From: a virus
DNA: 22,068 nt
IMG/VR virus record: IMGVR_UViG_3300025112_000216
Coordinates: 1 to 22,068 of that record
Strand: one strand, 5' to 3'
Below, one piece after another: positions 1 through 21,206 of this stretch. Under the pieces are notes generated by a model. It saw nothing but the letters and a program-made list of their open reading frames with translations. It was not told the DNA's origin and did no database searches. Made by a program: the position numbers and the translations under genes. The first letter of the stretch is position 1. Each line of letters opens with the position of its first letter.

Positions 1-1359
1 GAATCCGTTGAACTGGATGAGAAAATTCTTTCTCCGATGTATTTCGATTCTGGCATGTCCAATCGAGCCCATGCAGATAGATTTGTTAAATTTATAAAGA
101 GCAAGAAAATAACAATACAATCTTATCGTATTTCTGGTCAATATGAAATCTTTCCTAAAACTCCTCAAGATGTAGACACAATACGCAAAGCCGCAAAAAA
201 ATACGGTTTGATTGCCATAAAAGAATCCGTTGAACTGGATGAAGCAGACAACACTGCCGCTGTTGCAAAGCAAGTCAAGCAAGCAGTAAAGAAATATACA
301 ACAGGTAAACTTGCTGTCCAATCAAAGGGTGGTAAGACTCGTTTTATCATGCTAAGAGCAGATAAGATTGACAACAAACTTCGCAAGATGATTCTTGATA
401 TTGAACACCCAAATGCAAATGTTAAGAACATGGATGACATTCACTATGCTAACATCAGCGATAGAATCATCAGTGCGGGTGCCGATGTATGGATAGATGC
501 ACTTGGACTGAAAGAATCCGTTCAACTGGATGAGGTGTGGATTCTCGCAAGTGATGAAATGAATCCTGTCAAGAAGACTGCACAGAAACTTGCCAAGCAA
601 AATCCCGATAGAACCTACTTTCTTGTTCAGCACGCCAGACACCATGCTGGTGGAATAATCAAGTATCGCTACGAGGTGGTTGATGGGGTTGATATGCATA
701 TGTACAGAGATGCAAAGAGAATCGCACAATATGGCAAGATCAAAGAGTCCGTTGAACTGGATGAAAAACTTTCCGCAAAAATGATGAAAAAGTTGGGGAT
801 AGTAAATCCTTTAGCAGGAAAACACTACCCATATCAAGAAGAAAATACACAAGTAGAAGACAAAGCACAGATAAATGAAGCAGAAGAATGGCTCCTTGCG
901 TTTGAATTTAAGACAGCCTACTCTGGAGAAGGTCGTGACACTAGAAGAGATCTTGAAAAAAGATTTAAAAAATATTGGACCGGATCTGGAAGTACAGGTA
1001 AAGGATGGGATGTAAGTTTTCATGGAACAAAGAACGAACTTCAAAAGATCAAGAAATATGTCGAAAAAACATACGGTAAAGATTTAGATAAGAGACATAC
1101 TATTCTCTCTGTTTTTGAATCGGCTGTTGATGAATATAGGGGTTCAATTGATTCTACTAGTCATAAGAGTGCTGAACAACGAAGAGAAGAATATGCAATG
1201 AAGAAAAAGAAAAAGGAAAGACTTGCAAAAAAATCTGTTGGTTTGGGTGAAGTTGCTCCCGCTGGTTGGGAAGGAACAGTCAAGGCAATGAAGAAGAAAA
1301 AAGATATTGATAATCCTTGGGCATTGACACATTGGATGAAAAATAAAGGACAAATATAA
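1..1359 (+). CDS. modular (polyprotein-like) phage protein, 5' end outside window
   Basis: The frame is open from base 1 (it begins ESVELDEKILSPM), so the ATG at 37 is internal and the true start lies upstream. The motif ESVELDE or ESVQLDE occurs at bases 1-21, 223-243, 514-534 and 745-765. It separates modules of about 67 to 90 residues with mixed alpha/beta character. These modules are not obviously alike, although the two ending at 222 and 744 both close with an Ala/Lys-rich helix just before the linker. A fourth module follows INEAEEW. A Lys-rich stretch (KKKKKERLAKK) and a tail containing GWEGTVKAMKKKKDIDNPWA end the protein; I have the impression that this tail recurs in marine phage proteins. 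The L-D-E endings fit the T4 gp21 prohead protease consensus (L/I-x-E), so I infer a head-packaged polyprotein. No enzyme motif was recognised. Transcription probably ends at the terminator at 1395. Confidence 0.85.
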   Translation, partial: ESVELDEKILSPMYFDSGMSNRAHADRFVKFIKSKKITIQSYRISGQYEIFPKTPQDVDTIRKAAKKYGLIAIKESVELDEADNTAAVAKQVKQAVKKYTTGKLAVQSKGGKTRFIMLRADKIDNKLRKMILDIEHPNANVKNMDDIHYANISDRIISAGADVWIDALGLKESVQLDEVWILASDEMNPVKKTAQKLAKQNPDRTYFLVQHARHHAGGIIKYRYEVVDGVDMHMYRDAKRIAQYGKIKESVELDEKLSAKMMKKLGIVNPLAGKHYPYQEENTQVEDKAQINEAEEWLLAFEFKTAYSGEGRDTRRDLEKRFKKYWTGSGSTGKGWDVSFHGTKNELQKIKKYVEKTYGKDLDKRHTILSVFESAVDEYRGSIDSTSHKSAEQRREEYAMKKKKKERLAKKSVGLGEVAPAGWEGTVKAMKKKKDIDNPWALTHWMKNKGQI

Positions 1360-1466: not shown

Positions 1467-2282
1467 ATGCAAAACCTAATACGGTATCTCTTAGTCCCTT
1501 TGCTATTGATTACGGGGTGTAAAGCCCCGCAGGCGAGCAGTCTACCCCCTCAAAACACAACAGATATAGTTATCGCCAAGATTGAATCACCCCCACCAAA
1601 TTACTTGGATGAGTGGTTTATCGCAGCAACACCAGAAGATGACCCATACCCGTCTGTATGTAGTTTGCATACAGAAAGTGGGTATCTGATAGGAAGTGGA
1701 ATACTAATCCGCCCGGGTGTCGTTCTAACGGCAGGCCATTGCGTCAATGGCAACAATGTGTTTTCTATTACCATTGGAAATGAACAGATAATGGTAAAGA
1801 AAACTGTGCTACACTCCCGATACAGCGATTCGCTCGGGCGGGTGCAAGATGATATAGCGTTGATATTCCTTGAGTGTGAATCTAAATACGAACCAGCCGA
1901 ACTGGGATGTATTGAATGGATCAAACGATATCAGAGTATCACTACTGTAGGGTATTCATTTGAGTATAAGAAGTACAGTAAACCAAAAGTATTTAGGTAC
2001 TTTGGAACTGTTACAGAAGAACCAGACACAATGAAATTTATTCCACGACCGGCTAGTGTTTGGTTTGGTGATTCTGGTGGCGGGGTATTTGCAGAGTATG
2101 AAGGAAAGAGTTATCTTGTGGGAGTTATTAGTAATTTTATGGTGATCAAACCATTTAGTGGTAAACCAGTAGTTTCAGAATGTTCTGCAACCATTGTGTC
2201 GCTATATCTAGAATGGATAGAAAGAGAGGTATTGAAAAATGAGATTGAAGAGACTGAAATATTTGTTAGGGATGGGCGGTAG
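1467..2282 (+). CDS. trypsin-like serine protease with lipoprotein signal peptide
   Basis: The 271-residue protein has a complete chymotrypsin-fold triad: His91 in LTAGHCVNG, Asp129 in DDIALIFL and Ser203 in GDSGGGVF. The N-terminus is a hydrophobic signal ending in LITGC (Cys18), a good lipobox. The protein should be exported and lipid-anchored on the outer side of the inner membrane or on the outer membrane. Two further Cys pairs (65/92 and 139/148) could form disulfides in an exported protein. The gene follows a terminator, and AGGA lies about 11 bases before the ATG. Its last 44 bases overlap a small membrane protein gene in another frame. Known trypsin-like folds in phages are rare, and a lipoprotein form suggests action on the host envelope. 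The substrate is unknown. The protease call is secure; the role is open. Confidence 0.93.
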   Translation: MQNLIRYLLVPLLLITGCKAPQASSLPPQNTTDIVIAKIESPPPNYLDEWFIAATPEDDPYPSVCSLHTESGYLIGSGILIRPGVVLTAGHCVNGNNVFSITIGNEQIMVKKTVLHSRYSDSLGRVQDDIALIFLECESKYEPAELGCIEWIKRYQSITTVGYSFEYKKYSKPKVFRYFGTVTEEPDTMKFIPRPASVWFGDSGGGVFAEYEGKSYLVGVISNFMVIKPFSGKPVVSECSATIVSLYLEWIEREVLKNEIEETEIFVRDGR

Positions 2283-2373
2283 TGCTGGAGAACGGATTTT
2301 ATCTGCTGTTGCTATTGTTGCTGGTTTTATCATCGGCTTGTATGGATCAAGATTCCTCATAGATTTAATGTAA
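2239..2373 (+). CDS. small single-span membrane protein (44 aa), overlaps the protease gene
   Basis: An ATG at 2239, nine bases after AGAGAGG, opens a 44-residue frame that overlaps the protease end by 44 bases and stops with TAA at 2371. The product has a basic N-terminus (MRLKRLKYLLGMGG), then a hydrophobic segment of about 20 residues (ILSAVAIVAGFIIGLYG) and the short tail SRFLIDLM. The good ribosome-binding site, the continuation beyond the protease stop and the clean membrane segment support a real, translationally coupled gene. A partner role with the protease, or a holin- or antiholin-like role, is possible, but nothing shows it. Confidence 0.65.
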   Translation: MRLKRLKYLLGMGGSAGERILSAVAIVAGFIIGLYGSRFLIDLM

Positions 2374-2393
2374 ACAAACAATTCATATATAAA

Positions 2394-2427
2394 AGACAAC
2401 CTTCTGATTCTAGTCAGAAGGTTGTCT
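2394..2427. terminator. 14-bp perfect hairpin; terminator-like on the - strand
   Basis: AGACAACCTTCTGA (2394-2407) and TCAGAAGGTTGTCT (2414-2427) pair perfectly around the loop TTCTAG. Read on the - strand the stem is followed by TTTTATATAT, the layout of an intrinsic terminator. On the + strand no U-run follows, so there it would be simply the first stem-loop of the intergenic RNA block. Confidence 0.7.
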
Positions 2428-2434
2428 ACTATGA

Positions 2435-2486
2435 CGGGCAAAAGGTAGCGAGTTCCTAATGAATGGCGTAACGAAACGCCTGCCCG
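2435..2486 (+). ncRNA. structured RNA resembling the 23S rRNA helix 70 core
   Basis: CGGGCA (2435-2440) and TGCCCG (2481-2486) close a small multibranch fold. Inside, AAGGTAGCGA (2442-2451), TTCCT (2453-2457) and GAATGGCGTAACGA (2461-2474) match, in order, three nearly invariant bacterial 23S rRNA pieces in E. coli positions of about 1927-1981. The rRNA reads AAGGTAGCGAAATTCCTT, then the helix 71 hairpin, then GAATGGCGTAAYGA. Here AA becomes G and the helix 71 hairpin is replaced by AAT. AGG/CCT can form the helix 70 pairing, and GGCGT/ACGCC (2465-2469 with 2476-2480) a further local stem. The sense orientation is the + strand. No reading frame explains it. The match is from memory of the rRNA sequence; function is unknown. 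Confidence 0.7.
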
Positions 2487-2490
2487 ATAA

Positions 2491-2524
2491 AAAACACTGA
2501 TGCCAATCAAGGCATCAGTGTTTT
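2491..2524. terminator. bidirectional 14-bp terminator hairpin
   Basis: AAAACACTGATGCC (2491-2504) pairs perfectly with GGCATCAGTGTTTT (2511-2524). On the + strand it continues TTTTACTTTATAC, and on the - strand TTTTTTATC. It can end transcription from either side and isolates the resolvase gene from the RNA block. Confidence 0.8.
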
Positions 2525-2570
2525 ACTTTATACAAAATGTTTATTGTTTTCCACTACCTTATGTATAAGA

Positions 2571-2578
2571 CATAAATA
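2571..2578 (+). promoter_or_regulatory. late promoter box CATAAATA
   Basis: CATAAATA lies 28 bases before the resolvase ATG, leaving room for a short leader with the ribosome-binding site GAGAGGA at 2595-2601. It differs by one base from the T4 late consensus TATAAATA. Confidence 0.65.
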
Positions 2579-2606
2579 GTTATGGAAGAATTTTGAGAGG
2601 ATTTTT

Positions 2607-3170
2607 ATGCCAGTGATAGCAGGAATAGATTATAGTATGCGTTCACCCTGTATATGTGTTTTTGTAGGAACACAAAAGGAATCCTTTTCGTTTGATAGAT
2701 GTACTTTTTATTACCTCACTGATACCAAGAAGTATGCAAATTTTTTCTTGAATAATATTCATGGAGAAAATTTTCAAGAATGGAATGAAGATTTTGAAAG
2801 ATATAAGTCAATAGCAGATTGGGCGATTGACCGTCTTATAGGGTGCGATCAAATTGCTATTGAAGGATATTCAATGGGTAGTAAAGGTAAAGTATTTCAT
2901 ATAGCAGAAAATACAGGCGTACTTAAATATAAAATCTACAATCTCGGAATTCCGCTTGAAGTTGTTCCTCCCACTACTATAAAAAAATTTGCTACTGGGA
3001 GAGGCAATGCAGATAAAAAAATGATGCACAGATATTTTAAAGACGATACAAAGGTTGATTTGAAAACGACAATTACACCCAACAAAAGTTCAATAGGCAA
3101 TCCGGTTTCGGATATTGTTGATTCTTTTTATATTTGTAAATTTTTGTATGAGAAAATCACAAAACCTTAG
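2607..3170 (+). CDS. RuvC-like Holliday junction resolvase / RNase H-fold nuclease
   Basis: The 187-residue protein has the RuvC layout. MPVIAGIDYSMRS carries catalytic Asp8; strand IAIEGYS carries Glu86; and PVSDIVDSFYIC has Asp169 and Asp172, spaced by three like RuvC D138/D141. The intervening VVPPTTIKKFATGRGNADK matches the family segment in which pyrimidine/resolvase enzymes read P..(I/V)KK..TG.G.A.K. Such enzymes cut four-way junctions in concatemeric phage DNA before packaging, a task done by endonuclease VII in T4 itself. A promoter box and the site GAGAGGA precede it. Its stop overlaps the stop of the convergent lipoprotein gene by four bases. The fold is confident; the exact junction specificity is not. 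Confidence 0.85.
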   Translation: MPVIAGIDYSMRSPCICVFVGTQKESFSFDRCTFYYLTDTKKYANFFLNNIHGENFQEWNEDFERYKSIADWAIDRLIGCDQIAIEGYSMGSKGKVFHIAENTGVLKYKIYNLGIPLEVVPPTTIKKFATGRGNADKKMMHRYFKDDTKVDLKTTITPNKSSIGNPVSDIVDSFYICKFLYEKITKP

Positions 3171-4075
3171 TGCTTATTCCACCCATTTTTGATCTTAATC
3201 TGACTCACTATGTTTTTTGTCATGGTACTTGTGAGTTGTGACGCAACTCCATCTTGTCCAAAGATTTCCTTACGCTCCTGAGAACTCAATCTGTCTTTCA
3301 TTTCTTCAATAAGTTGAACAATTTCTTTTATAGCCTTTTCGTTCCGTCTCCCGTTGAGAAGCATATATGCAATCACCCCCATAGTTATCAAAAAACCACC
3401 AATCAAGACGATCAAGCCAACCTGTGCAATTTCTTCCATATAGTATTGGCTAGCAGTAGCAAACCCAACAGTGAGAACACCCACCGCTAGAAGCACCGCA
3501 CCTAACCGACCATTTACCCAAAATGCTATAAAAGCACCTGCAACGAGCATTGCAAAACCGATAGTAAAGAATAGTGTGATGTTTTCGTGAAGATTTTCTA
3601 ATGCTTCTCGTCGGACTTCTCTATCAGATTGCTCATATTCTTTGACTAAATCTTCTAGGTCTTCGATTTGTCCGACAGCAGCAGCAACTCTTGCATTAGC
3701 AGATTCTAAATCTTCTAGTGCCTCATCCACTCTTACTTGTTCTTTTTGTGCATCATCTACAGATTCTTTGATTGATTCTGCTGAGTCTTCAATCGAATTC
3801 AGTGTAGGGTCTATATTATAATTGTGATCATCTGGGACAAGTGCAATATCATTCAGAATTGAATCTGCTTGATTGTCTATGTCTCCAAGATCATTACCAA
3901 TTTCATCAGAAGCACTACCAATTTCTTCTGTTTGTTCTTTTTGTTCTCTGAGAGAATCTACTACTGTACTTGAAGTGTTTGCTGGTGAATCTGGGTTTGT
4001 ATCCCACTCATCAAACATCTCACACCCAAAAGCAACAGTTATAGTTGCTACCATCATCATTATTAACTTTTTCAT
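3167..4075 (-). CDS. coiled-coil lipoprotein with three membrane spans
   Basis: 302 residues. The N-terminus MKKLIMMMVATITVAFGC is a signal peptide with a fair lipobox (Cys18). Residues 35-160 are acidic, Ser/Asp/Glu-rich and predicted coiled coil (repeated DSI, SIEDSAESIKESVDDAQ). Three hydrophobic spans follow at about 167-187, 191-209 and 217-240. The C-terminus is a charged helix (KAIKEIVQLIEEMKDRL). AGAAGG precedes the ATG. The long periplasmic-type coiled coil is reminiscent of spanin-like or superinfection-exclusion proteins, but I recognise no family. It is the last gene of the - strand run and converges on the resolvase gene. Confidence 0.8.
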   Translation of the reverse strand: MKKLIMMMVATITVAFGCEMFDEWDTNPDSPANTSSTVVDSLREQKEQTEEIGSASDEIGNDLGDIDNQADSILNDIALVPDDHNYNIDPTLNSIEDSAESIKESVDDAQKEQVRVDEALEDLESANARVAAAVGQIEDLEDLVKEYEQSDREVRREALENLHENITLFFTIGFAMLVAGAFIAFWVNGRLGAVLLAVGVLTVGFATASQYYMEEIAQVGLIVLIGGFLITMGVIAYMLLNGRRNEKAIKEIVQLIEEMKDRLSSQERKEIFGQDGVASQLTSTMTKNIVSQIKIKNGWNKH

Positions 4076-4078
4076 TTT

Positions 4079-4465
4079 TCACCTTCTAATTGCCGGAATT
4101 AAATATGACATTGTTCCGTATGTTCCATCCTTTATTATAACTGCTTTTCCAGGATTTTTATGTGCATATGATCTTATTTCTTGATTATTAATTTCTTCCA
4201 TATTAAGTTTTTTATTCCATCTTTCATATTTCATTCTGCCGTGCATACATTTGGTATAATCTTCACTTGCTACAGTAAATACAGGACATCCCGCAAACAT
4301 TTCTTTTATTTTTCTTTTCTTTCTTCGTATGCCTCCAAGAATTGGGTCATAACCAGCCAGATTACCCGAGTCAGACGATGCTTGATCAACACTAAATCCT
4401 CCGCCCATAGAATTCATCGGTGCATTTTCGATTAATTCTTCTATTATGTCTTGATATGTTTTCAT
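4079..4465 (-). CDS. probable internal head protein with T4-type targeting peptide
   Basis: 128 residues. It begins MKTYQDIIEELIENA, which closely resembles the T4 internal protein leader MKTYQEFIAEA and contains L-I-E and I-E-N steps suited to prohead protease cleavage. The rest has a Gly/Ser-rich stretch, a basic patch IRRKKRKIKEM and a C-terminal domain with HKNPGKAVIIKDGTYGTMSYLIPAIRR. No known enzyme motif. It starts three bases after the TAA of the upstream gene with no strong ribosome-binding site, suggesting translational coupling. Packaging in the head is inferred from the leader only. Confidence 0.75.
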   Translation of the reverse strand: MKTYQDIIEELIENAPMNSMGGGFSVDQASSDSGNLAGYDPILGGIRRKKRKIKEMFAGCPVFTVASEDYTKCMHGRMKYERWNKKLNMEEINNQEIRSYAHKNPGKAVIIKDGTYGTMSYLIPAIRR

Positions 4466-4468
4466 ATG

Positions 4469-4645
4469 TTATATATCATTTTTATCATATAATCTTTTTT
4501 CAAAAGTGTTTTGAGTTTCTTTATTCTTGTTCTGGATTTTAACTATTTTTGCTCTTCTTTGATTCGGAGTTAGACCCTTTTTCTTTATAGGCATTCTAGA
4601 GGATTTTCTGTTTATTCGTCTATTTTTTCCACAATTGCAACCCAT
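4469..4645 (-). CDS. small basic Cys-containing protein (58 aa)
   Basis: The frame is open further upstream, but AAGGAGTG four bases before the ATG at 4645 fixes the start at MGCNCGKNRRINRKSS. That ATG overlaps the upstream TAA as TAATG. The product is very basic (many Lys/Arg/Asn) with only two Cys, both at the N-terminus (Cys3 and Cys5). I have the impression that tiny MGCNCGK proteins recur in T4-like marine phages, with unknown function. It could bind nucleic acid or be packaged in the head. Confidence 0.7.
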   Translation of the reverse strand: MGCNCGKNRRINRKSSRMPIKKKGLTPNQRRAKIVKIQNKNKETQNTFEKRLYDKNDI

Positions 4646-5857: not shown

Positions 5858-6325
5858 CTACCCCTCAGATTCTATAATTTTTGCATCCATTTTATATAAA
5901 CCTTCATCTCCAACAGAAATGTTAATATCTAAAGATAATCCTTTACCATTATTAAATTCCTTAATGCCATCTGTTGTTTCAAATTCCGCATGTGGGGTTT
6001 GGAGAGATTTTCCAAAAGTACCACCATAACGATTTAGTGGAAGAACCATTTTGCCATTTTCAGCAACAGTTGAAGTACCATTCCAATCAAAATCTAAACC
6101 AATGGTATTAAATTTGTGTCGGATTTGTGCAATTGCTGCTCTAGGCTCCATAAATTCCCGTTGAGTAAACGAATTTAAGAAAGAATTTATTCTTCCTCGT
6201 TGCTCTGGATTTTCTATACGATGAACACCATAATCACTATAAGCACTCCTTGATGCGCCGCCAGTAGTTTCTTCGCCTTCGAAAAGGTTTGTTAACAATT
6301 CATTTAGTTCTTTAAATTTTATCAT
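5858..6325 (-). CDS. conserved phage structural-type protein
   Basis: 155 residues. The N-terminus MIKFKELNELLTNLFEGEE resembles the head-targeting leaders in this region and holds L-F-E and L-N-E steps. It is followed by a Gly/Ser linker, then YGVHRIENPEQRGRINSFLNSFT, EFMEPRAAIAQIRHKFNTIGLDF and a beta-rich C-terminus. I associate the VHRIE...FLNSFT...GLDF pattern with a conserved T4-like marine phage family of unknown role. GGAGAAC lies six bases before the ATG, and a CATAAATA late box lies 13 bases upstream on the - strand. Confidence 0.78.
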   Translation of the reverse strand: MIKFKELNELLTNLFEGEETTGGASRSAYSDYGVHRIENPEQRGRINSFLNSFTQREFMEPRAAIAQIRHKFNTIGLDFDWNGTSTVAENGKMVLPLNRYGGTFGKSLQTPHAEFETTDGIKEFNNGKGLSLDINISVGDEGLYKMDAKIIESEG

Positions 6326-7021: not shown

Positions 7022-10000
7022 CTATTTATCCCTGGTTATAGTCATATATGGGGTATCTTTTATATATCTTTTTATCAATTTCTCTGTGCCAATTTCTCCT
7101 GCACCATGCTCTTCTGCTCTCCATTTATTATTATTTCTACTTCTATTACGAGAAGCAGATGTGATTTGTATATTGGAAGATGAATTATTCAGGGGATTTC
7201 CGTCTTTATGATCTATATCTTTTCCATCACCTACCGATAATCTACCATCTCGTATCAATCTATTCCTCATACCTGTTCTGGCACTTCTTCTTTTTCTTTG
7301 TTCTGGTTGTGCATTGTATTTTTTTAATCTTTTTGCTCTATTTACCGGATCTTCATTTTCGTTGCTTTGTTTTTTATTCCTATTTTGAATATCCCGTAAA
7401 GGTTGTTGTGACGGAATATTTGACGGGGTATTTCCAAATTGTTGAAATGCGATTATATCAGATTTTTTTTGTCCTGTGTTTTGTTGCCCTGGTGTTACAG
7501 GAATCGGAGGTTGATTTTCCTTTGCACCCATATTTGCAATTCTTGAAGCATAATATATGGGGGCTAATGACTTTCCAAGTTTTGCTAATTTAGATAAACC
7601 ACCAAGTATTGCAATCTCTTCTAATGGGGGTGCTTCATTTATTTCTGTAAAATATTCTAATTCATCTCTTAAATCTTCAAACTTATCTGGCGGAATTTCC
7701 ATATCATCATACCCATCAGTCCATCTTAAAACTTCTGGTATAACCAATCCTTCTTCTTTAAGTGCAGGAAGAATCAATTCAAACACATTAAAATAATCTA
7801 TAAGAAGTTCTTCACCTTCGTTAATGTCTCTAATTGCATGTGTATAAAAATTACCATCCCGATTTTCTACTAAAACTAAATTTGGGTTACTCCACGAATG
7901 ATTTGTAAACCTACAGAAATCTGTTCTTTGATATTCTGGCGCATTACTATTTTCACTCAACAGATTTATATAATACAACCCAACACCCTCACCTTCTTTT
8001 ATATTATTAGTAGAAAATGTACCAATACCTTCTATCAAAGATTCTTTGAAATTGTATGCGATGTATTGTTCATCTGTTGTTGCAACATTTTGCTGTTGTG
8101 TATCAACTTGCTTTTTTTTAGTTGTGTGTGATTTGAATGTGGCAAGTTTGTTTTGTGCTGCTTTATTTTTCCCGGGAAGAATATTTTGTTTTTGCCTTTC
8201 CTTTTCTGTAGCACTTTCGTTAACATCTCTCCCTAAAGAATTTTCTATTTCGGATGATTTTGCCTTTTTAGATAATTTGTCATAATTTTTCCATTCATCA
8301 GAAGATAATCCCAAATAATCTTCATTTTCTTCGTCTTCTTTTTCTGGTTTATATTTTAATATAGAAACAAATTTAGATTTACCATCCATATTAATTTCGG
8401 TAGTTTCATCAGATATTTCTTTGGAACCGATTTCCTGCCATTCTAATTCATTGGTGCTAAAGTTTTCAAGTTCTATATTAAGGAAGTTCATAAGTTTCAT
8501 TGGATCTCCTCCAATTTCGTTCAACTTTTTCTTTCCCTCTTCTACAGCATCAGAATTGTTTGATATAGATATTAATTCATCAGGTTGTTCTGTGAGGATA
8601 TTGTCATATTCATGAAATGATAAAAACCCAGCAGCAAGTTCTTGTTGCTTTTGCTTTTGCTTTGCCCATGTTGCTTTTTCCTTACCCGACATTTTACTGC
8701 TACGAAGTGCCATATAATTTGCGTAATCGCCAGTTTTCATTTTCTTACCATCAACTATGATTTCTCTTTGACTCCCTTTCCATGCAAATATAAACTTTGT
8801 GTTGTCACTAACATTTTCAACCAAATTATTATCCATTTCTCTTATATTTGAGCCTGTACCATCTGGATTCATTGTAAAATATAAATTTGCAACTGCATTA
8901 TTACATCCACACTCAGCATTACAACACCCACAAAATTTGATACATCCCGTCATCGCTTCGTGTACCATTCCTTCTTTAAAAGAAGGACTTTCGTTTAGTA
9001 TATCATTAATTGATGCGGTTAGGTCATTTCTTAATTTTTCACTATCTGCAATAATTTTAACAATTTCTGGATCATATTCTGAAGCCTTAGTATTTTTCCA
9101 ATGTTCGGGTTTTGGGGCCTTTCCATATACTTCATTCCAATTAACACCAGCAGAACCCGGACCGTATGTGTCCCACCATTTTGGAGGATTTTTTTCATCG
9201 CACCCTTTCGATGCACCGCATGTATAACTACCACCAGGGGTAAACCAATTAAATGGCCCAACGCCTTTACCAGAATTAAGATACATTTTGGTTTTATCTT
9301 CTAATTTTTTAACGAGTGCTTTGACCTTTTCTTTGGTTTTTGGTTCAAGTTCCATTAAACTTTTACAATGTTTTGTATCTTTTCCGACACAATGAGATTT
9401 CTGTTTTCCCATTACTCCCATCAATATTGCCATTGCTTCACCCGGGGCAGGAGACATCAATTGTCCTGGTCCTGCTTTAATAGAAGTTCCGTGTTCATGT
9501 CTTACACCATTTTTATCAATTTGTACAATTATGATATCACTTTTTGGTGTTGCATTTTTTGCACCAAATTCTTGAAAATGCTCAGAAGTTGTGATTGCTT
9601 CTTCTGTGCCAGATCCCGTGTGTTCTAAGTGCCACTGAGATGTTTTATCAGGATCTACTTTCTCTATAAAAGGAATAATAGCAGTTTTAATTGCTCTTGC
9701 AGAAGCAGATTCCATTCCATGACCATATTTTTCTGCTTCTGAAGAAAGTAATGTCATACTTTTGTGTGCTTTTATCGAATCATTTTCAGACACATTACCA
9801 ACAGAATCATCAAGTCCTTGCATTCTATTAAATTCTAAAACCATTCCTGCTTCAATCATTACAGCAGGAAAATCTACAGGATATTTTGCACCAGAAGTTG
9901 GTGTTTTCTGAAGAAGTTTTCGTACATTTTCTTGTATTTTTGCATCTAATGATTGAAATGCTTCTTGATTTTCTAAATTTTTTAGTTGCTTATCTCGCTC

Positions 10001-11863
10001 AGATTTTAATTGTTTCTTTTCTTCTTTTTCTGCTGCTTTCATTTCTTTGGGGGTCATTTCTCTTGTTTCTCCCCCCTGTCCTGTTAATTCTTCTGGTTGT
10101 GGTGTTTGTTGCTGCTGTTGCGTTTTTTGTGTCTTTTTTTCAGCGGCATCAACTGCTGCTCTTCCGAGAAGTTTTACTGATGTTAATGTTCCTTTAAAAT
10201 CACCATATTTTCCATTTACAGCCCTTTTACCATCGGCAAGTTTTACTTTTCCTTTATCTACTAAAACATCATGACTTGCAGTGGTTTTTGTAACAATTCT
10301 AACTTGACCACTTTTATTTTTAACTATATAAACATCTTTCCAATCCAAATCAGAATCGGTTCTTTTTTCAACTTCTCTTTCTCCTCTTTTATCAGCAGTA
10401 TTTTTTTCTTGAGGGGTTTCAGCACCCGTTCCACGATTTCTTTCCCGTTCTTTAGCAATTCTTATTTGTTCGGATTTTTGCATTCGTGAAAATTCAACAA
10501 GTGACATTACACCACGATTATGTAAATTTGATTCATTTAAAACTTCTGATTTAAAACTAGCATCAAAACTTTCAATTGCTTTTGCAGGATCGTTTGTGGT
10601 CATTTTTGTTCTCACTTTTTTTAATCTTTCTTGTTCTGCTCTTCTTGCTTGGGGAACCAACCGCTTTGCGAGTTTACTAATTACATTTTTCTTCTTTTTG
10701 AGCCTATCTTCTATTTTTTCTCTTTGAGAAAATGATAATTCGTTCCAATTCATTCCTTTTATCATTCTTGCACGAAGTTTAGAAATTGCTGCTTTTTGTG
10801 CTTTCTTTTTAATTTCTGCACCAGACTTTTTTCTCTTCTCTTTCATCTTTCTTTTACGCATTCTTTTCTTTGCTGTTCTTCTGGCACTTCTTGCCATTTT
10901 TCTTCTGGATTGGATTGAAATTTCATTAAGTTCACTTTCGTTTGATTCAACAGATTCAGATGTTGTATCATGAACTCTTATATTTGTGTTTTTTGCATGA
11001 GTAAGAAGTTCATTTTTGTTTGATCCTCTTTTAATATGTACATCATCTAGTGTCAAAAGAGCATATCCGCTTGCAGATTTGACTAATTTAGCAGCCATTG
11101 TTTTTTCATCAATCTTTTCTTTTCTTTTCTTTTTCTTAAATCCTTTTGTTCCCCATACTTCGTTGTCTATTGCAGGAACATCTATACCTTCTCCACCCAT
11201 ATCAAATTTTTTCAATATATTTTTTGACATACAATATTCATTCTCTTCTTTTAAGAATTCGACGAATTCGTCATAATTAAACCAATTTTCTGAAACAAAG
11301 GGTTTTACTCCCATTCCGAGTTGAACTGCTTTAAATAATTGTTGTGTATCGTTTGTTGATACATGTGAAGGAACACCCAATCTAAAGGCATTCAAATTTC
11401 CCTCTTTTGCTGCTACACGCATTTTAGATGCAGACATTCCTTGAATATTTTCTGCATCTGGATCTCTTTCTCCTGCTGATACAACCTCAAATTTTTCAAA
11501 TTTATATATCTTATTTGGTCCAATATATTTGGACATACTTTTTTTGAATTCATTAACTCTGTCTCCACCAACCACCATAACGACATCTGTGTATCCTTCC
11601 TTATCCAATTCCGATAAGGCATCAAATGGGGTTTTAACTTTGTTATTTATTAATACATTGAATCCCTTAAGTGCTTTTTTCATAAATCTTAATTTTTGTT
11701 TAGAACTTAGTGGGTTCCTTTTTCTATCATAACTCATACTGCCATATATTCTATGATCGGCACTTCTTCTTAGTGCTTCTTGTTTCACCTTAGATGCTAA
11801 TAGATAATGCCCCGTAGTTGGGGGATTAAATCTACCGAAAGTAAAAACTATTTGTTTTCTCAT
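7022..11863 (-). CDS. giant multidomain virion polyprotein: nucleotidyltransferase, basic region, unknown domain, SET, HNH
   Basis: 1613 residues. Residues 1-190 are a cytidylyl/adenylyltransferase-like domain with GRFNPPTTGH (10-19) and SASKMR (144-149). Residues 260-297 hold a KRGSN module also found in the gene ending at 21449. ESVESNESELNE (303-314) is a linker like those of the gene at 1-1359. Residues 315-420 are extremely Arg/Lys-rich helix. Residues 505-570 form a small domain, and 575-635 are Gln/Lys/Glu-rich. Residues 640-1095 are one large unknown domain with FKEGMVHEAMTG and a Cys cluster at 974-987. A SET methyltransferase-like domain (1270-1360) has GIGTFS, RFTNHSWSNPN and GEELLIDYF. 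HNH lies at 1520-1585 (DIDHKDGNPLNN). L-N-E or I-N-E steps (311-314, 442-444, 1114-1116, 1408-1410) separate the modules. AAGGAA precedes the ATG. It is probably cut by the prohead protease, an inference. Confidence 0.85.
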   Translation of the reverse strand: MRKQIVFTFGRFNPPTTGHYLLASKVKQEALRRSADHRIYGSMSYDRKRNPLSSKQKLRFMKKALKGFNVLINNKVKTPFDALSELDKEGYTDVVMVVGGDRVNEFKKSMSKYIGPNKIYKFEKFEVVSAGERDPDAENIQGMSASKMRVAAKEGNLNAFRLGVPSHVSTNDTQQLFKAVQLGMGVKPFVSENWFNYDEFVEFLKEENEYCMSKNILKKFDMGGEGIDVPAIDNEVWGTKGFKKKKRKEKIDEKTMAAKLVKSASGYALLTLDDVHIKRGSNKNELLTHAKNTNIRVHDTTSESVESNESELNEISIQSRRKMARSARRTAKKRMRKRKMKEKRKKSGAEIKKKAQKAAISKLRARMIKGMNWNELSFSQREKIEDRLKKKKNVISKLAKRLVPQARRAEQERLKKVRTKMTTNDPAKAIESFDASFKSEVLNESNLHNRGVMSLVEFSRMQKSEQIRIAKERERNRGTGAETPQEKNTADKRGEREVEKRTDSDLDWKDVYIVKNKSGQVRIVTKTTASHDVLVDKGKVKLADGKRAVNGKYGDFKGTLTSVKLLGRAAVDAAEKKTQKTQQQQQTPQPEELTGQGGETREMTPKEMKAAEKEEKKQLKSERDKQLKNLENQEAFQSLDAKIQENVRKLLQKTPTSGAKYPVDFPAVMIEAGMVLEFNRMQGLDDSVGNVSENDSIKAHKSMTLLSSEAEKYGHGMESASARAIKTAIIPFIEKVDPDKTSQWHLEHTGSGTEEAITTSEHFQEFGAKNATPKSDIIIVQIDKNGVRHEHGTSIKAGPGQLMSPAPGEAMAILMGVMGKQKSHCVGKDTKHCKSLMELEPKTKEKVKALVKKLEDKTKMYLNSGKGVGPFNWFTPGGSYTCGASKGCDEKNPPKWWDTYGPGSAGVNWNEVYGKAPKPEHWKNTKASEYDPEIVKIIADSEKLRNDLTASINDILNESPSFKEGMVHEAMTGCIKFCGCCNAECGCNNAVANLYFTMNPDGTGSNIREMDNNLVENVSDNTKFIFAWKGSQREIIVDGKKMKTGDYANYMALRSSKMSGKEKATWAKQKQKQQELAAGFLSFHEYDNILTEQPDELISISNNSDAVEEGKKKLNEIGGDPMKLMNFLNIELENFSTNELEWQEIGSKEISDETTEINMDGKSKFVSILKYKPEKEDEENEDYLGLSSDEWKNYDKLSKKAKSSEIENSLGRDVNESATEKERQKQNILPGKNKAAQNKLATFKSHTTKKKQVDTQQQNVATTDEQYIAYNFKESLIEGIGTFSTNNIKEGEGVGLYYINLLSENSNAPEYQRTDFCRFTNHSWSNPNLVLVENRDGNFYTHAIRDINEGEELLIDYFNVFELILPALKEEGLVIPEVLRWTDGYDDMEIPPDKFEDLRDELEYFTEINEAPPLEEIAILGGLSKLAKLGKSLAPIYYASRIANMGAKENQPPIPVTPGQQNTGQKKSDIIAFQQFGNTPSNIPSQQPLRDIQNRNKKQSNENEDPVNRAKRLKKYNAQPEQRKRRSARTGMRNRLIRDGRLSVGDGKDIDHKDGNPLNNSSSNIQITSASRNRSRNNNKWRAEEHGAGEIGTEKLIKRYIKDTPYMTITRDK

Positions 11864-12523: not shown

Positions 12524-13726
12524 TTACCCCTTTATCCAATCTTTCGGAACACTAAAATTCGCTTTACTAAATTCAAGTCTGTCTACTATTTTTATTGCAC
12601 TGTTTGTAAGTTTATCTACACCAACAAACCCCTCTGGTTTTGTAACTCGAAATCCGTCTTCCGTTTTTATGAATGTTTCCATAGATTCAATACTTTCAAG
12701 TTTTCTTAAAATAATCATTTTTGCTTTTCTCAATTCTTCTCTTAATGCAAATACCCCATCAAGTAATTTTATAGAAAATTTAAATTTATTCATCATTTCT
12801 TCTTTGAATGTTCTTTTTCTTTCTTTACCCTTTTCAGATTTCATAGAATTAATTTCGTTTTCAAATCTTTCATCTAACCATTTAATGAAATTATCAGAGG
12901 ATAAAGATTCTGTCCCTGCACGAACATTAACATTCACAAATATATTCAACAAATCGAACATTTTAGAATCATTTTTTATAACATTTATGAATCCTTTAGA
13001 TGTTTTTCTGTGCTTATTAATTTTGTTAAATGAATCATATATTGTACTAACTTCTGAGAGTGTTAATGAAGCAATACCACTTGTATTTTTAAATGATGCA
13101 TCATCTACCCACACTTGCCTATTGTTCTTTAGTTTGTTTATGTTTGGGTTAAATTTCGAAGACATTTTTGATAGACTTTTTCCGGTATATTCTGTGTGGA
13201 ATATTATCCCAAATTTAGATTGTTTAATTCTTTTTCCCAAGTCTGAATCAACAGGTATAGCATATGTAATAGTATTTGGAGTAAATGTGTAATACTGTTT
13301 ACCTTTGATTCTTTGCGTTTTAACATCACCGTGCGAAAATAACATATCCCCCTGTAATATACCCATAATAGGCAATTTCTTTAAATATTTGAGTGCAGCA
13401 ATAAGTTTACTTCCCACACCAGATGTATGATTTTTTTTAATATCCGAAACTGTATAGTTTACTTTTGGTCGTTTATTAAAAACACTTTTAGTACCGACAA
13501 AGAACTTTCCATTCTCTGGATTTTTACCACAAATAATTGCAGGTGCGCCATCCCACTTTACTGATGCATTTACCTTAGAACTAGAATTACCTTCCAGCAT
13601 TTTCACCAATTCTTCTAAAAAATACACACCCTCTTGAACACGATCATCACCCTCAAAAGCCAAATCTTCCAAATGGATTAGGTGAGTGTTTTTTGCTTCT
13701 ATAAGATATTGCTTGAAGGATTTCAT
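12524..13726 (-). CDS. KWDG nucleotidyltransferase (RNA/DNA ligase-like, DUF6267-like), head-targeted
   Basis: 400 residues. It starts MKSFKQYLIEA, the head-targeting leader of this region with an L-I-E cleavage step. VKWDGAPAII at about 56-65 is motif I of covalent nucleotidyltransferases, with Lys57 the expected adenylylation site; FVGTKSVFNK follows at the usual spacing and ILQGDMLF (123-130) resembles motif III. A region of helices makes up the C-terminal half. The family resembles what I recall as DUF6267 of T4-like cyanophages, annotated as uncharacterised. A packaged ligase could seal nicks in the injected genome or act on host RNA. The ATG comes four bases after the upstream stop with a weak ribosome-binding site. 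Confidence 0.82.
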   Translation of the reverse strand: MKSFKQYLIEAKNTHLIHLEDLAFEGDDRVQEGVYFLEELVKMLEGNSSSKVNASVKWDGAPAIICGKNPENGKFFVGTKSVFNKRPKVNYTVSDIKKNHTSGVGSKLIAALKYLKKLPIMGILQGDMLFSHGDVKTQRIKGKQYYTFTPNTITYAIPVDSDLGKRIKQSKFGIIFHTEYTGKSLSKMSSKFNPNINKLKNNRQVWVDDASFKNTSGIASLTLSEVSTIYDSFNKINKHRKTSKGFINVIKNDSKMFDLLNIFVNVNVRAGTESLSSDNFIKWLDERFENEINSMKSEKGKERKRTFKEEMMNKFKFSIKLLDGVFALREELRKAKMIILRKLESIESMETFIKTEDGFRVTKPEGFVGVDKLTNSAIKIVDRLEFSKANFSVPKDWIKG

Positions 13727-17634: not shown

Positions 17635-18381
17635 TTATTTTCTCAAATCAGATGGACGAATCACTTTTTCATATGAACCCTGTCCTGTTTTTACCAATGG
17701 TTCATCTGTTGCTTTTTTACCAGATTGAGAAATACCCTTTGCTGGTGTTGGTTTTAAAGTTCTTATACGAGTTGTACTTTTAGCATACTTTGCTGGAATG
17801 TCAGTAGCCCAGGTCTTGGAATCTAGGCCTCTTGCAATATAAGGAGTTTCACCACCAACTACTGATTGTGCTGGATGGACAATATTAGGTTTGCCTGGCG
17901 GACTTGTTCTTACTGGAGTACTTCGTGGAGCTCCACGAAGAGCTGGTGCGTAGGGACGGTATGGAACTTTTGCTTCACTTAAACCGACTGATTCGCAGAC
18001 TGCATCGCAAAGTTCTACTAAACAATCTACGGCTTCCATGATGTCTTCATCGGATGTGTCCTCGGTAAGACCACCGTTGAAGTATTCATTAAAATATTCA
18101 TAAGCAAATTGCTCATTTAGTTCAACAGATTCATTATTTGTATCTTCCTTAACAGGGGCAGAATCATTTTCATCAGTTTTGCTGTTTGGTCGTAATGAAT
18201 CACCTGCTGCTGTAGTAGGTTCAATTGTTGATTTGTCTTTCTTTTCGTTTGGCTTATATTCCTTCATGTCAGAAGGATATGCTTCACGACGAATGCGAGA
18301 ATACATTTGTTTTGTGCCTGGATCATCATCCAACTTTCCGTGAATATGGTTTAGATGTTGTTTAAATTCGTTAATATTCAT
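17635..18381 (-). CDS. EYFNG-domain protein with ESVELNE processing-like site (248 aa)
   Basis: The N-terminus MNINEFKQHLNHIHGK has the FKQH element of the head-targeting leaders. An acidic, Lys/Glu/Thr-rich region ends in NNESVELNE (82-90), the same motif that divides the modular protein at 1-1359. Then comes the domain EYFNEYFNGGLTEDTSDED with helix IMEAVDCLVELCDAVCESVG (95-134), closed by GLSEAK, another L-x-E step. The last 110 residues are Pro/Arg/Lys-rich and unstructured. It looks like a processed scaffold or head-interior protein. AAGGAG lies seven bases before the ATG, and the gene is followed by a terminator, so it ends its own transcript. Confidence 0.8.
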   Translation of the reverse strand: MNINEFKQHLNHIHGKLDDDPGTKQMYSRIRREAYPSDMKEYKPNEKKDKSTIEPTTAAGDSLRPNSKTDENDSAPVKEDTNNESVELNEQFAYEYFNEYFNGGLTEDTSDEDIMEAVDCLVELCDAVCESVGLSEAKVPYRPYAPALRGAPRSTPVRTSPPGKPNIVHPAQSVVGGETPYIARGLDSKTWATDIPAKYAKSTTRIRTLKPTPAKGISQSGKKATDEPLVKTGQGSYEKVIRPSDLRK

Positions 18382-18421: not shown

Positions 18422-18946
18422 TTATGATTGAGTTATCGTCACATTTTCTATATGATACCCCTTTATACCACTATGGTCATGGACGGTATACTCTGGATAT
18501 TTATTACTCAAATTATCTTTCGTTTTTCGTATTAATCGTTTAATCACTCTCGCTTGGTGTGTGGTAGATGTTTTATCTTCTTTATCTGGTATAGAATTAT
18601 TTATACTATATTCTTTCTTTTTGTGGTCAATTCTTCCTTGGACAAAATGCTCTGGATCTCCTGCTTGAGTTATTGCTTTGCTCACCCTTTTCTTTGGATG
18701 CTTTTCTATCCATGTTTCGTGGTTTGCAGAATCGGGATGCATTTCATATCCTGTTTTTCGTTCATGTGCATCTCTTTTATTTTTATATAATTTTAAGTGA
18801 TTGACAGAATCGTGCCCACTGACAGCACCGTTATGATATAATTCTACATGCTTCATATCTCTATGAATCGTGTGATGCCCAACATCAAAATAACTTGTTG
18901 GTTTCTTTTTTTCTTCTGTTGTGATGTATTGGCGAAATGATTTCAT
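18422..18946 (-). CDS. head-targeted His/Lys-rich protein
   Basis: 174 residues from the ATG at 18946, which overlaps the upstream TGA as ATGA; the five codons before it are out-of-frame sequence of the upstream gene. The leader MKSFRQYITTEE fits the local type. The body is rich in His and Lys (YFDVGHHTIHRDMKHVELYH, NHETWIEKHPKKR), followed by a helix (ARVIKRLIRKTKDNLSNKYP). No known family. The overall layout (His-rich beta region, helix, final strand) weakly resembles that of the protein at 19305-19829. Confidence 0.75.
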   Translation of the reverse strand: MKSFRQYITTEEKKKPTSYFDVGHHTIHRDMKHVELYHNGAVSGHDSVNHLKLYKNKRDAHERKTGYEMHPDSANHETWIEKHPKKRVSKAITQAGDPEHFVQGRIDHKKKEYSINNSIPDKEDKTSTTHQARVIKRLIRKTKDNLSNKYPEYTVHDHSGIKGYHIENVTITQS

Positions 18947-19299
18947 TTTATTGTTGGCCATTTATCGAAAGATTTGTCCCAAGGTCCATGATGTCCATAC
19001 CCACCAAATTGATTTCGTGTTGCCTGTGTCGGGGTATACTTTACCGTATTTTTCACCTTGAATGTTTTATAGAACTTCTTTATGCTCCATCTACCACTGT
19101 CACCGATATTTGTGTCATATACTTTTCCCTTGTCTTCTATCCATGCATGAGGAAATGTTTTTCCTAAAGTGTTTGTCACTATGCCATGCACGACCTTGTG
19201 TGTTCCGCCCTTATGATGTTCTATGTTCCAATCATTCGCCCACTTGAAACAATCACCGCATACCATTGCTTCCGTAATGTATTGCTTGAAAGTTATCAT
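18943..19299 (-). CDS. head-targeted Cys-His-Asp (transglutaminase/papain-like) protein, copy 1
   Basis: 118 residues from ATG 19299 (an upstream frame start would be TTG). After the leader MITFKQYITEA comes MVCGDCFKWANDW (Cys14, Cys17), then FPHAWIEDKGKVYDTN (His51, Asp62). A Cys at the start of a helix, then HAW(I/V)E and a strand ending in D is the order of transglutaminase/papain-like enzymes and related cysteine peptidases. Cleavage after ITEA would leave the catalytic segment almost at the new N-terminus. Bases 18951-19280 match 20298-20627 with only one, silent, difference. The assignment to a catalytic fold is moderate. Confidence 0.8.
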   Translation of the reverse strand: MITFKQYITEAMVCGDCFKWANDWNIEHHKGGTHKVVHGIVTNTLGKTFPHAWIEDKGKVYDTNIGDSGRWSIKKFYKTFKVKNTVKYTPTQATRNQFGGYGHHGPWDKSFDKWPTIK

Positions 19300-19304
19300 A
19301 AATA

Positions 19305-19829
19305 TCAATCCTGACGAGATAAAGTAAATGTTGTCTTGTGTCCATGATCCGTTTCAGAATGTTTCATTCCAAGTTCCTTTGCAACTCTATTTGTCATCTT
19401 TCGATATACATTTTCTCTTGCTCTTGGATTTCCGTGATGATGGCTTGCTTTAAGTGCATCAAATTCAATTGTATGATTACCGTCCGGGTTCTTGGATGTT
19501 ATGTCCTTTGAGTGTCGGTGGACGAATGCTGCAACATGATTGAGTATTCTTTTGGCTCCTTTCGCTCCAACCTTTCCAGTTCTTGCAGTTCCTTCATCGT
19601 CTACACTAAAATCAACCTTAGATGTGTTTTTCTCTGTATCATGCCATGCAGACATGTTTACTTGGTGTTTACCAATTTTTCGATCATGAAAATGATGATA
19701 GTAACTTTTTCCCACATCCACCACATGAACCGGATGTGGTTCGTGCTGGACCTTAATCTTCTTCGACATTCTTTGAATTTTCTCCGCAGAAGATACCTTT
19801 TCTAAAATGTATTGTTTAAATGATTTCAT
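19305..19829 (-). CDS. head-targeted protein with IEF-A-K...R-A...G motif
   Basis: 174 residues. The leader MKSFKQYILEK has L-E-K after Ile. The middle is beta-rich with many His; then come helices (RILNHVAAFVHRH) and the motif HTIEFDALKASHHHGNPRAR, with VYRKMTNRVAKELGMK after it. That last motif (I-E-F-x-A-x-K, basic loop, R...Y...R.A...G-x-K) also ends the protein at 20643-21206. I take it for a shared phage domain with a core reminiscent of acetyltransferase-type folds, which is weak. GGAG lies seven bases before the ATG, which overlaps the upstream TGA (ATGA). Confidence 0.75.
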   Translation of the reverse strand: MKSFKQYILEKVSSAEKIQRMSKKIKVQHEPHPVHVVDVGKSYYHHFHDRKIGKHQVNMSAWHDTEKNTSKVDFSVDDEGTARTGKVGAKGAKRILNHVAAFVHRHSKDITSKNPDGNHTIEFDALKASHHHGNPRARENVYRKMTNRVAKELGMKHSETDHGHKTTFTLSRQD

Positions 19830-20293
19830 ATATCACTCCAGTATACTCTGTCCTTATCTTTGGCATTGATTCTCTTGGCGAGCAATTTCAATGTTCTGTT
19901 TTTGAGTGCAAAGTTTGTACCTACCGTGCGTGTATTCATAATAATAACTTTCAAGTTACCAACTGCTTCCATATCTGGGTCCAAATCATCTAAATCATTT
20001 ACAGTCATAAAGTTTATCATTCCTTTTGCATAGTCACCAACATACTTCTCACCAGTCATCGCATAGATAACAGGTTCATGAATTGCATCATATGAATCCC
20101 ACATCCACATTTTACCTTTGGAATCTACAACGAATCGGAGTTCTTTGATTTTAGACTTGTTTAGTGCTGTCGTGATTTCTTTTTCCGAAGGATTTTCAAA
20201 ACCACGAAAGTCACTCCACTCTGCACCTTTGTATGGAAAGGCTGAGGATAGTTTCGCTGGCTTCTCTGTGATGTATTGCAAGAATGATTTCAT
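19826..20293 (-). CDS. head-targeted protein with WDSYDAIH segment
   Basis: 155 residues from ATG 20293, which overlaps the upstream TGA (ATGA). The leader is MKSFLQYITEK. After a linker the core reads LRFVVDSKGKMWMWDSYDAIH, and EPVIYAMTGEKYVG follows; the rest is an acidic turn (NDLDDLDPDMEAVG) and a basic helical end (NRTLKLLAKRINAK). A strand with D-x-K-G, then W-D-x-x-x-A-x-H, is a pattern I have the impression of seeing in other phage proteins, function unknown. The DNA encoding the leader is nearly the same as that of the next gene upstream. Confidence 0.75.
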   Translation of the reverse strand: MKSFLQYITEKPAKLSSAFPYKGAEWSDFRGFENPSEKEITTALNKSKIKELRFVVDSKGKMWMWDSYDAIHEPVIYAMTGEKYVGDYAKGMINFMTVNDLDDLDPDMEAVGNLKVIIMNTRTVGTNFALKNRTLKLLAKRINAKDKDRVYWSDI

Positions 20294-20646
20294 TTTTTTG
20301 TTGGCCATTTATCGAAAGATTTGTCCCAAGGTCCATGATGTCCATACCCACCAAATTGATTTCGTGTTGCCTGTGTCGGGGTATACTTTACCGTATTTTT
20401 CACTTTGAATGTTTTATAGAACTTCTTTATGCTCCATCTACCACTGTCACCGATATTTGTGTCATATACTTTTCCCTTGTCTTCTATCCATGCATGAGGA
20501 AATGTTTTTCCTAAAGTGTTTGTCACTATGCCATGCACGACCTTGTGTGTTCCGCCCTTATGATGTTCTATGTTCCAATCATTCGCCCACTTGAAACAAT
20601 CACCGCATACCATTGCTTCCGTAATGTGTTGCAAGAATGATTTCAT
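20290..20646 (-). CDS. head-targeted Cys-His-Asp (transglutaminase/papain-like) protein, copy 2
   Basis: 118 residues from ATG 20646, which overlaps the upstream TGA (ATGA). It carries the leader MKSFLQHITEA in place of the MITFKQYITEA of copy 1, followed by an almost identical body (VCGDCFKWANDW; FPHAWIEDKGKVYDTN; last residues WPTKK instead of WPTIK). The DNA of the body differs by one silent base over about 330, but the leader differs, so the leader and body have been recombined. Retaining two copies suggests a dosage effect, a recent duplication, or gene conversion. The probable enzyme fold is as for copy 1. Confidence 0.8.
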   Translation of the reverse strand: MKSFLQHITEAMVCGDCFKWANDWNIEHHKGGTHKVVHGIVTNTLGKTFPHAWIEDKGKVYDTNIGDSGRWSIKKFYKTFKVKNTVKYTPTQATRNQFGGYGHHGPWDKSFDKWPTKK

Positions 20647-21206
20647 TTTTTTGTCAACTGCCATCTAACTCTTGACGCTTGTTTGTTTTCGTCTCTGTCT
20701 GATTTGTATCCCATTTTGCCTGCAAATCTCTTCACGATTGCACCATATGCTCCTGCACGACCAGTCGGTTCTTTTGTTCCCGTTTTACGATTATCTTGTC
20801 CTTTATCAGCACTAAAGATGAGTGTTATTGGTTCGTGCTTCTTTATGATAGACTTGATTATGTCTAACACTGTTGCAAGGATTCTCATTGCATCACCTTC
20901 GCCCGTCATATCATGGGTGGGATATCCATATTGAGTATCTCTCTTCATGAATTCTATAGCAATGGTGTGTCCTGTTTCCTTTATCATTACTCCCGCCATC
21001 TTCCAGTCTGATTCTACCCAAAAATGATTTGCAGTCACTTCAATAGTTCCACCATCAGATGTTTTGAATATATACTCTTCTAGCATACCCTGATTTTTTG
21101 GTGTTATTGAACCCTTTGCAACATTACCACCACGCCACTTGTATGGCTTGTCAAATACTTCTGTGATGTGTTGCAAGAATGATTTCATTTCTTTGTCAAC
21201 TGCCAT
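20643..21206 (-). CDS. head-targeted protein with SADKG...GRAGAY motif (187 aa)
   Basis: The leader MKSFLQHITEV starts at residue 7. The ATG at 21206 is preceded by GGGAAGAG at good spacing, while the second ATG (21188) would begin exactly at the leader; both remain possible. The body is beta-rich (YKWRGGNVAKGSITPKNQGM, EVTANHFWVESDWKMAG, IAIEFMKRD), with a helix (AMRILATVLDIIKSIIKK) and the motif TLIFSADKGQ, then RAGAYGAIVKRFAGKMGYKS. The last motif resembles the end of the protein at 19305-19829 and is common to phage proteins of this type. Function is unknown. Confidence 0.78.
   Translation of the reverse strand: MAVDKEMKSFLQHITEVFDKPYKWRGGNVAKGSITPKNQGMLEEYIFKTSDGGTIEVTANHFWVESDWKMAGVMIKETGHTIAIEFMKRDTQYGYPTHDMTGEGDAMRILATVLDIIKSIIKKHEPITLIFSADKGQDNRKTGTKEPTGRAGAYGAIVKRFAGKMGYKSDRDENKQASRVRWQLTKK

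Follow-up and report, generated by a model that had tools for sequence, protein, structure and literature searches.

The first 1,359 nucleotides (nt) of IMG/VR virus record IMGVR_UViG_3300025112_000216, of which we analysed a fragment of 22,068 bases (hereafter the window), hold an open reading frame (ORF) in which near-identical copies of a short repeat encode the peptide ESVELDE between modules. We consider it likely that this ORF encodes the downstream portion of a prohead-core polyprotein that a gp21-type protease would cut after L/I-x-E, freeing the pieces in the head, and that the linker between the pieces also acts as a recombination seam. A broader proposal, which we offer tentatively as a real possibility, is that marine T4-type phages possess an exchange system for injected proteins in which the same coding repeat is both protease site and recombination seam.

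A linker-separated polyprotein in the window

A preliminary description of this DNA had reported near-identical repeats encoding ESVELDE between unrelated modules, and we find them at nt 1, 223 and 745, with ESVQLDE at 514. The repeat GAATCCGTTGAACTGGATGA is present as exact copies at 1-20 and 223-242 and as one-base variants at 514-533 (GTTCAA, giving ESVQLDE) and 745-764 (GAGTCC). All four copies share the single frame 1-1359 (+), the first is the exact start of the window contig, and a Lys codon precedes the last three (KESV[E/Q]LDE). The modules M0 to M2 that lie between linkers are 67-90 amino acids (aa) long and have no evident common sequence. The parts of the ORF are as follows.

1..1359, +, 5'-open ORF, 452 aa; C-terminal portion of a polyprotein with linker-separated modules, its N-terminal leader being off the contig
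1..21, +, linker 1, ESVELDE; predicted cut after E
22..222, +, module M0, 67 aa; no relative among the loci searched
223..243, +, linker 2, ESVELDE; repeat in frame
244..513, +, module M1, family F7; AlphaFold2 (AF2) pLDDT 93.1
514..534, +, linker 3, ESVQLDE; one-base repeat variant
535..744, +, module M2; single distant relative, in L049 (35%)
745..765, +, linker 4, ESVELDE; one-base repeat variant
766..870, +, short module or spacer M3 (KLSAKMMKKLGIVNPLAGKHYPYQE...); weak relative in L003
871..879, +, I-N-E boundary that lacks the DNA repeat; precedes M4
880..1116, +, module M4, ferredoxin-like fold; AF2 pLDDT 89.2
1117..1359, +, C-terminal module M5 (WEGTVKAMKKKKDIDNPWALTHWMKNKG), basic; relative in L017

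The ORF has no Pfam match above cut-off, and so shows none of the known conflict-related enzyme domains that polyvalent proteins combine in one chain. Relatives of M1 occur in differing contexts in L001, L003, L007, L008, L019 (partial), L024, L026, L027, L068 and L115, some of these loci being the same contig or near-duplicates; its family, F7, is thus present both in the window polyprotein and in a cytidylyltransferase-headed ORF of L007. Some modules are up to 88% identical across contigs despite having other neighbours. Trimmed at its linkers, M1 gives a confident, compact AF2 model with no clear relative in the PDB [best Foldseek E 0.5; best VIA Z 3.4, root-mean-square deviation (rmsd) 4.4 over 65]. 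The structure nearest to M4 is a designed protein (Z 9.2, rmsd 2.2 over 73), and the ferredoxin-like fold is so common that it says nothing on function. Judged by these models, M1 and M4 are predicted to fold independently.

Distribution of the linker

The exact 23-mer AAAGAATCCGTTGAACTGGATGA occurs in 27 stretches of viral contigs in IMG/VR, and a pattern left free at every synonymous site except AGY serine occurs in at least 119. In bacterial and archaeal genome contigs, the 23-mer with two degenerate sites (four-fold degenerate) gave 2 matches, and the contrast with the 27 viral stretches indicates that the linker repeat is not a product of chance. One of these matches (L160) is an isolated copy inside a thioredoxin-like protein. 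The other (L159, 2-796, -) is a phage polyprotein carrying ESVELDE and headed by a capsid-targeting sequence (CTS), on a contig filed as a Bacteroidetes metagenome-assembled genome; this is probably a misbinned phage contig.

The collected loci comprise 133 non-redundant ORFs (the window and L001-L133) with at least one strict motif, 61 of which carry two to six. Every repeat copy with up to three mismatches in the ORFs studied (230 of 230) is in frame and on the coding strand. The strict motif is found in 1 of 142, 1 of 62 and 2 of 50 ORFs in three large contigs; the second motif ORF of G008 sits between gp21 and gp23, the place of scaffold gene 22 in T4. When 50,697 phage records were searched with tblastn, the window ORF and the polyproteins of L002, L010 and L103 were unmatched. 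A polyprotein of L048 and the DNA of L078 matched phage records of the four cultured Melnitz isolates only. Melnitz-1 has milder linker forms (EEVELDE, EEIEIDE and EEFQLDE), with a single site per protein, and has CTS-like starts too. A polyprotein releasing several proteins inside the head had been described beforehand as an uncommon strategy, a view that we have to reverse, as the linker-polyprotein system is common in marine T4-like contigs.

Conservation of the predicted cleavage site

According to the available text of PMC9026906, cleavage by the T4 protease gp21 follows L/I-x-E, and the ten N-terminal residues of the internal protein IPIII are enough for packaging. In the window, ESVELDE, ESVQLDE and INE all agree with this rule. 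Among 288 in-frame linker segments, selected by DNA distance alone, P1 is Glu in 97.9% and P3 is Leu in 92.4%, the changes at P3 being to I (10), V (8), M (2), F (1) and E (1). The other positions are P7 Glu in 95.1%, V in 89.2%, P4 E in 87.8%, P2 D in 86.8% and S in 83.7%. Substitutions in the linker track the peptide, and silent sites are the most changed.

Similar tripeptides are found where the repeat is absent. At module starts without ESVELDE, [LIVMF]-x-E ends 0-3 residues before the module in 113 of 194 cases, compared with 7.6% of 11,630 control positions; the 194 include linker variants and starts placed a few residues off, and overlapping loci lead to double counting of some contigs. 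The boundary before M4, which reads INE in the window, reads LME, LTE, IAE, LIE, LDE and VVE in six relatives. Near the T4 site of gp23, L-M-E was seen by eye in G002 and L-N-E in G008. The earlier suggestion that L-D-E fits a prohead protease gains independent indirect support from the specificity given in PMC9026906, from the preservation of P1 and P3 and from L-x-E at module starts that lack the repeat.

Gene position and leaders in relatives

In six relatives (G006, G008, G015, G016, G017 and G018) a linker ORF lies between the genes for the portal gp20 (PF07230) and for gp21 (PF03420), the place in G017 and G018 being deduced from module matches in L049 and L068. The order at the corresponding place in T4 is 20-67-68-21-22-23. 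Eleven marine leaders, selected by eye from these or similar ORFs, resemble T4 gp67 (hhalign probability 90, E 1.7e-6 in a single comparison), and the same leaders resemble the Melnitz gene at the matching place (hhalign probability 94). In G002 a gp67-like protein without ESVELDE lies between gp20 and gp21, and the six-site polyprotein is elsewhere (1500-3944). In the same contig (L134, G002 59881-63369) a gp67-like leader is fused to an extra domain with no ESVELDE linker between them, and by eye this domain resembles a module of L028 (...HWIW...). In Melnitz-1 a hypothetical gene (L157, 24008-24193) is gp67-like and follows a gp20-like and precedes a gp21-like gene, both recognised by eye. 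These findings place gp67-like proteins in marine T4-like phages; a 2010 review, in its available text, lists gp67 among proteins missing from cyanophages (PMC2984593).

The second class of leader is CTS-like. With a pattern modelled on the facts in PMC9026906 and on the window proteins, CTS-like starts are found in 7 of the 32 ORFs of the window (0.04 expected from shuffles), in 3 of 148 ORFs of G002 and in 3 of 190 of Melnitz; in T4, used as a control, 2 of 56 ORFs match, ipII and ipIII alone. We classed the leaders of the 113 linker ORFs with a visible 5' end as strict CTS (17; 0.15 expected for all strict matches), gp67-like (15, a partly circular count because 10 leaders used to build the profile come from the same set), cytidylyltransferase-headed (4), loose CTS (29) and unclassified (48). 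A [TC]ATAAATA box lies within 100 nt upstream of 6 of 17 CTS-headed ORFs, compared with 2.5% of random positions; we take this box to be the core of the T4 late promoter, and among ten window genes checked it precedes 2607-3170 only.

A gp21-type protease was detected in 18 of the 41 contigs searched, and in 11 of the 16 that are at least 50 kb long. The proposal of a phage-head polyprotein, made from the window alone, thus gains indirect support from the six relatives with a gp20-gp21 position, from gp67-like leaders and from CTS leaders in others, with the cutting itself predicted. The ORF 1-1359, whose own leader is off the contig, may belong to the gp67 class or the CTS class.

Probable module exchange at the linkers

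We compared module order among related phages, as the preliminary description had suggested. The 421 modules fall into 250 families, 70 of them multi-copy; two or more different neighbours are found on the left for 39 of these 70, on the right for 44 and on both sides for 23. A looser adjacency count gives 62 of 70 and takes in incomplete ends, so that the two-sided 23 of 70 is the stricter figure. Junctions sharing neither neighbour (39,894 pairs) have 77.6% identity over the 21-nt linker and about 30% in the flanks, in a comparison for which linkers were chosen by motif and which includes loci baited by one exact spelling.

An unbiased codon set was drawn from the matches listed (80 of at least 119) and comprises 83 occurrences in 72 loci. 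In this set, the identity of linker codons is 0.855 for the 55 within-contig pairs and 0.575 between contigs, with 0.497 expected from local usage, and the codon choice of the linker deviates from that of its own ORFs (Leu P = 1e-18, Val P = 5e-8, Lys P = 6e-9). The dominant spellings are TCC...CTG and TCT...CTT. In one clear case, the gp67-headed loci L013 and L005 differ by a single module with one linker, and DNA similarity resumes at the next linker. In the related loci L130, L127 and L121 the module orders are F30-F1-F1, F30-F65-F1 and F30-F65-F185-F1; the difference between the last two is a mere loss of the motif at a boundary (ESVEMQE versus ESVDLDE). Of 167 contig ends, 6 fall within 60 nt of a linker, with 6.5 expected; there is thus no enrichment, and the fact that the window starts at a linker is no evidence of population-level shuffling.

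The idea that the repeat is a recombination point, also put forward earlier, is supported indirectly by the variable neighbours, the homogenisation within contigs and the one insertion of a module with its linker. T4 recombines at homologies of 2-10 bp (PMC9391042), and recombination would account for the homogenised linkers. Conservation of the linker at the DNA level, always in frame, would allow it to double as a homology seam.

Other genes of the window

Several other window genes resemble internal proteins or share domains with the polyproteins, and are listed here.

4079..4465, -, stand-alone protein with CTS-like N-terminus MKTYQDIIEE; domain recurs as a polyprotein module
5858..6325, -, stand-alone protein MIKFKELNE...; a relative is fused C-terminally to the polyprotein L003 6332-8488
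7022..11863, -, 1613-aa ORF with Pfam matches to CTP_transf_like, SET and HNH_3
12524..13726, -, DUF6267 protein (Pfam) with CTS-like N-terminus MKSFKQYLIEA
17635..18381, -, protein with a single ESVELNE site
18943..19308, -, CTS-like protein MITFKQYITEA
19305..19829, -, CTS-like protein MKSFKQYILEK
19826..20308, -, CTS-like protein MKSFLQYITEK (inner Met)
20290..20664, -, CTS-like protein MKSFLQHITEA; 99.1% DNA copy of 18943-19308 over 343 nt
20643..21206, -, CTS-like protein MKSFLQHITEV

The domain of 4079-4465 is found as a module in L008 (66%), L001 (52%), L020, L025 and L107. In 7022-11863 the matches to CTP_transf_like and SET are above the Pfam cut-off and that to HNH_3 is below it; relatives in L007, L027, L014 and L003 have ESVELDE modules inside, between the domains, and in Melnitz a cytidylyltransferase-like domain is preceded by the CTS-like start MKKFSEIIEA. 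The near-copies 18943-19308 and 20290-20664, with two other CTS-headed genes between them, are a recent duplication inside an internal-protein-like gene cluster. Directly after the polyprotein, 1467-2282 (+) encodes a trypsin-like protease that is not of the prohead protease family and whose N-terminus, by eye, resembles that of a lipoprotein; a similar-looking gene (4190-4909) lies near the L001 polyprotein.

Alternative explanations

In the mechanism that we propose, the polyprotein would enter the prohead through an N-terminal T4-type leader, either a gp67-like core domain or a CTS. A gp21-type prohead protease would then cut after L/I-x-E, mainly at ESVELDE, freeing several small folded proteins in the head, which would probably travel with the DNA into the host and act there against its defences or in its takeover, like the T4 internal proteins. 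With the linker as a homology seam, modules could be gained, lost and swapped between genes and phages. Several observations weigh against this reading. Within the linker, S, V and the Glu at P7 are conserved more than L-x-E requires, and at 81 of the 194 module starts that lack ESVELDE, L-x-E is absent within 3 aa. Strict CTS-like ORFs are absent in G006 (0 of 63) and G008 (0 of 48), 48 of 113 leaders fall in no class, and the 29 loose CTS leaders compare with about 10 by chance. Searches for the gp21-type protease detected it in just 18 of 41 contigs and failed to do so in 5 of the 16 that are 50 kb or longer. In the 22-kb window fragment gp21 (PF03420) was unmatched, neither gp20 nor gp23 was noticed, and the fragment contains no leader for 1-1359, which is 5'-open with its upstream part off the contig. 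Moreover, most gp67 and gp22 fragments do not stay in the T4 head, and freed modules could likewise be lost.

Some of these points would suit a long prohead-core protein in which the modules are never separated, with ESVELDE as a flexible acidic linker kept by duplication. Cleavage is a prediction, E-S-V is conserved beyond L-x-E, and polyvalent proteins are in some cases uncut multidomain injected proteins (PMC5512222). We nevertheless judge an uncut scaffold unlikely, given the constraint on P1 and P3, the retention of L/I-x-E at module starts with unrelated linkers, and the fact that gp67, whose place the ORF occupies in relatives, is a known gp21 substrate (PMC9026906, PMC5694885). The ORF might also encode an elaborated scaffold, cut up before packaging so that the head is cleared, its fragments leaving and its variety reflecting scaffold drift, much as the fragments of T4 gp67, gp68 and gp22 mostly exit (PMC9026906, PMC5694885). 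To this we assign a similarly low probability, as the modules are compact and conserved, some reaching 88% identity between contigs in which their neighbours differ, as the same domains also occur as stand-alone CTS-headed proteins, and as enzyme domains lie inside the related ORFs of the 7022-11863 type. Conservation at the DNA level and the two codon dialects could instead point to a mobile element or recombinase site in which the peptide is incidental. That would hardly leave all 230 of 230 copies in frame, with substitutions that track the peptide and silent sites that change most; no inverted repeat is listed at the sites save one chance-like pair (I6), linkers are not enriched at contig ends, and we regard this explanation as very improbable.

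If the same repeat does have both roles in a cleaved polyprotein, any module flanked by it could join gp67, a CTS-headed protein or a cytidylyltransferase-like carrier, and then be packaged, cut free and injected. Such modules would need no promoter, start codon or targeting signal of their own, which would explain how marine T4-type phages carry many injected proteins compactly and renew them. A leader with L-D-E linkers would also be a sequence handle for hundreds of candidate injected anti-defence proteins, and it becomes testable whether a prohead protease releases functional proteins, beyond the removal of propeptides.

Comparison with known systems

A search of PMC for the literal string ESVELDE returned no phage paper, and in PMC titles and the starts of abstracts we found no account of marine phages with head polyproteins divided by linkers; this search does not extend to preprints or subscription papers, and we do not claim that such an account is absent from print. 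In the available text of the Melnitz paper, the words protease and polyprotein are not used.

The system shares with T4 gp67 the gp20-gp21 gene place in relatives, similarity of the leader and predicted gp21-type cleavage into pieces. T4 gp67, however, is a module-free protein of 80 aa with an acidic tail, whereas the marine leader continues into hundreds of residues of linker-separated domains. Like T4 IPI, IPII and IPIII with their CTS, the marine proteins have a short leader of the MK-[ST]-[FY] type ending in L/I-x-E, and they are predicted to be small, strain-variable head proteins; unlike the T4 case of one protein per gene, the marine modules share one leader with serial internal sites at which cutting is predicted. 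The T4 proteins IPI-III are injected inhibitors of GmrSD enzymes (PMC12373910), and any comparison of the marine modules with that function is by analogy only. In phiKZ and SPN3US (PMC10052503, PMC9026906) a gp21-like protease likewise makes several x-x-E cuts in one precursor, but there the extra cuts remove a propeptide, whereas the marine cuts would free different mature products.

Polyvalent proteins, as described in the available text of PMC5512222, also hold many unrelated domains per polypeptide and are predicted to be injected. They differ in having known enzyme domains, processing by their own MPTase domain or none, no common repeated linker and no connection with the T4 prohead core; in the window, 7022-11863 is closer to their description than 1-1359 is. 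Taken as a whole, the system resembles T4 gp67 and the T4 internal proteins combined with polyvalent proteins.
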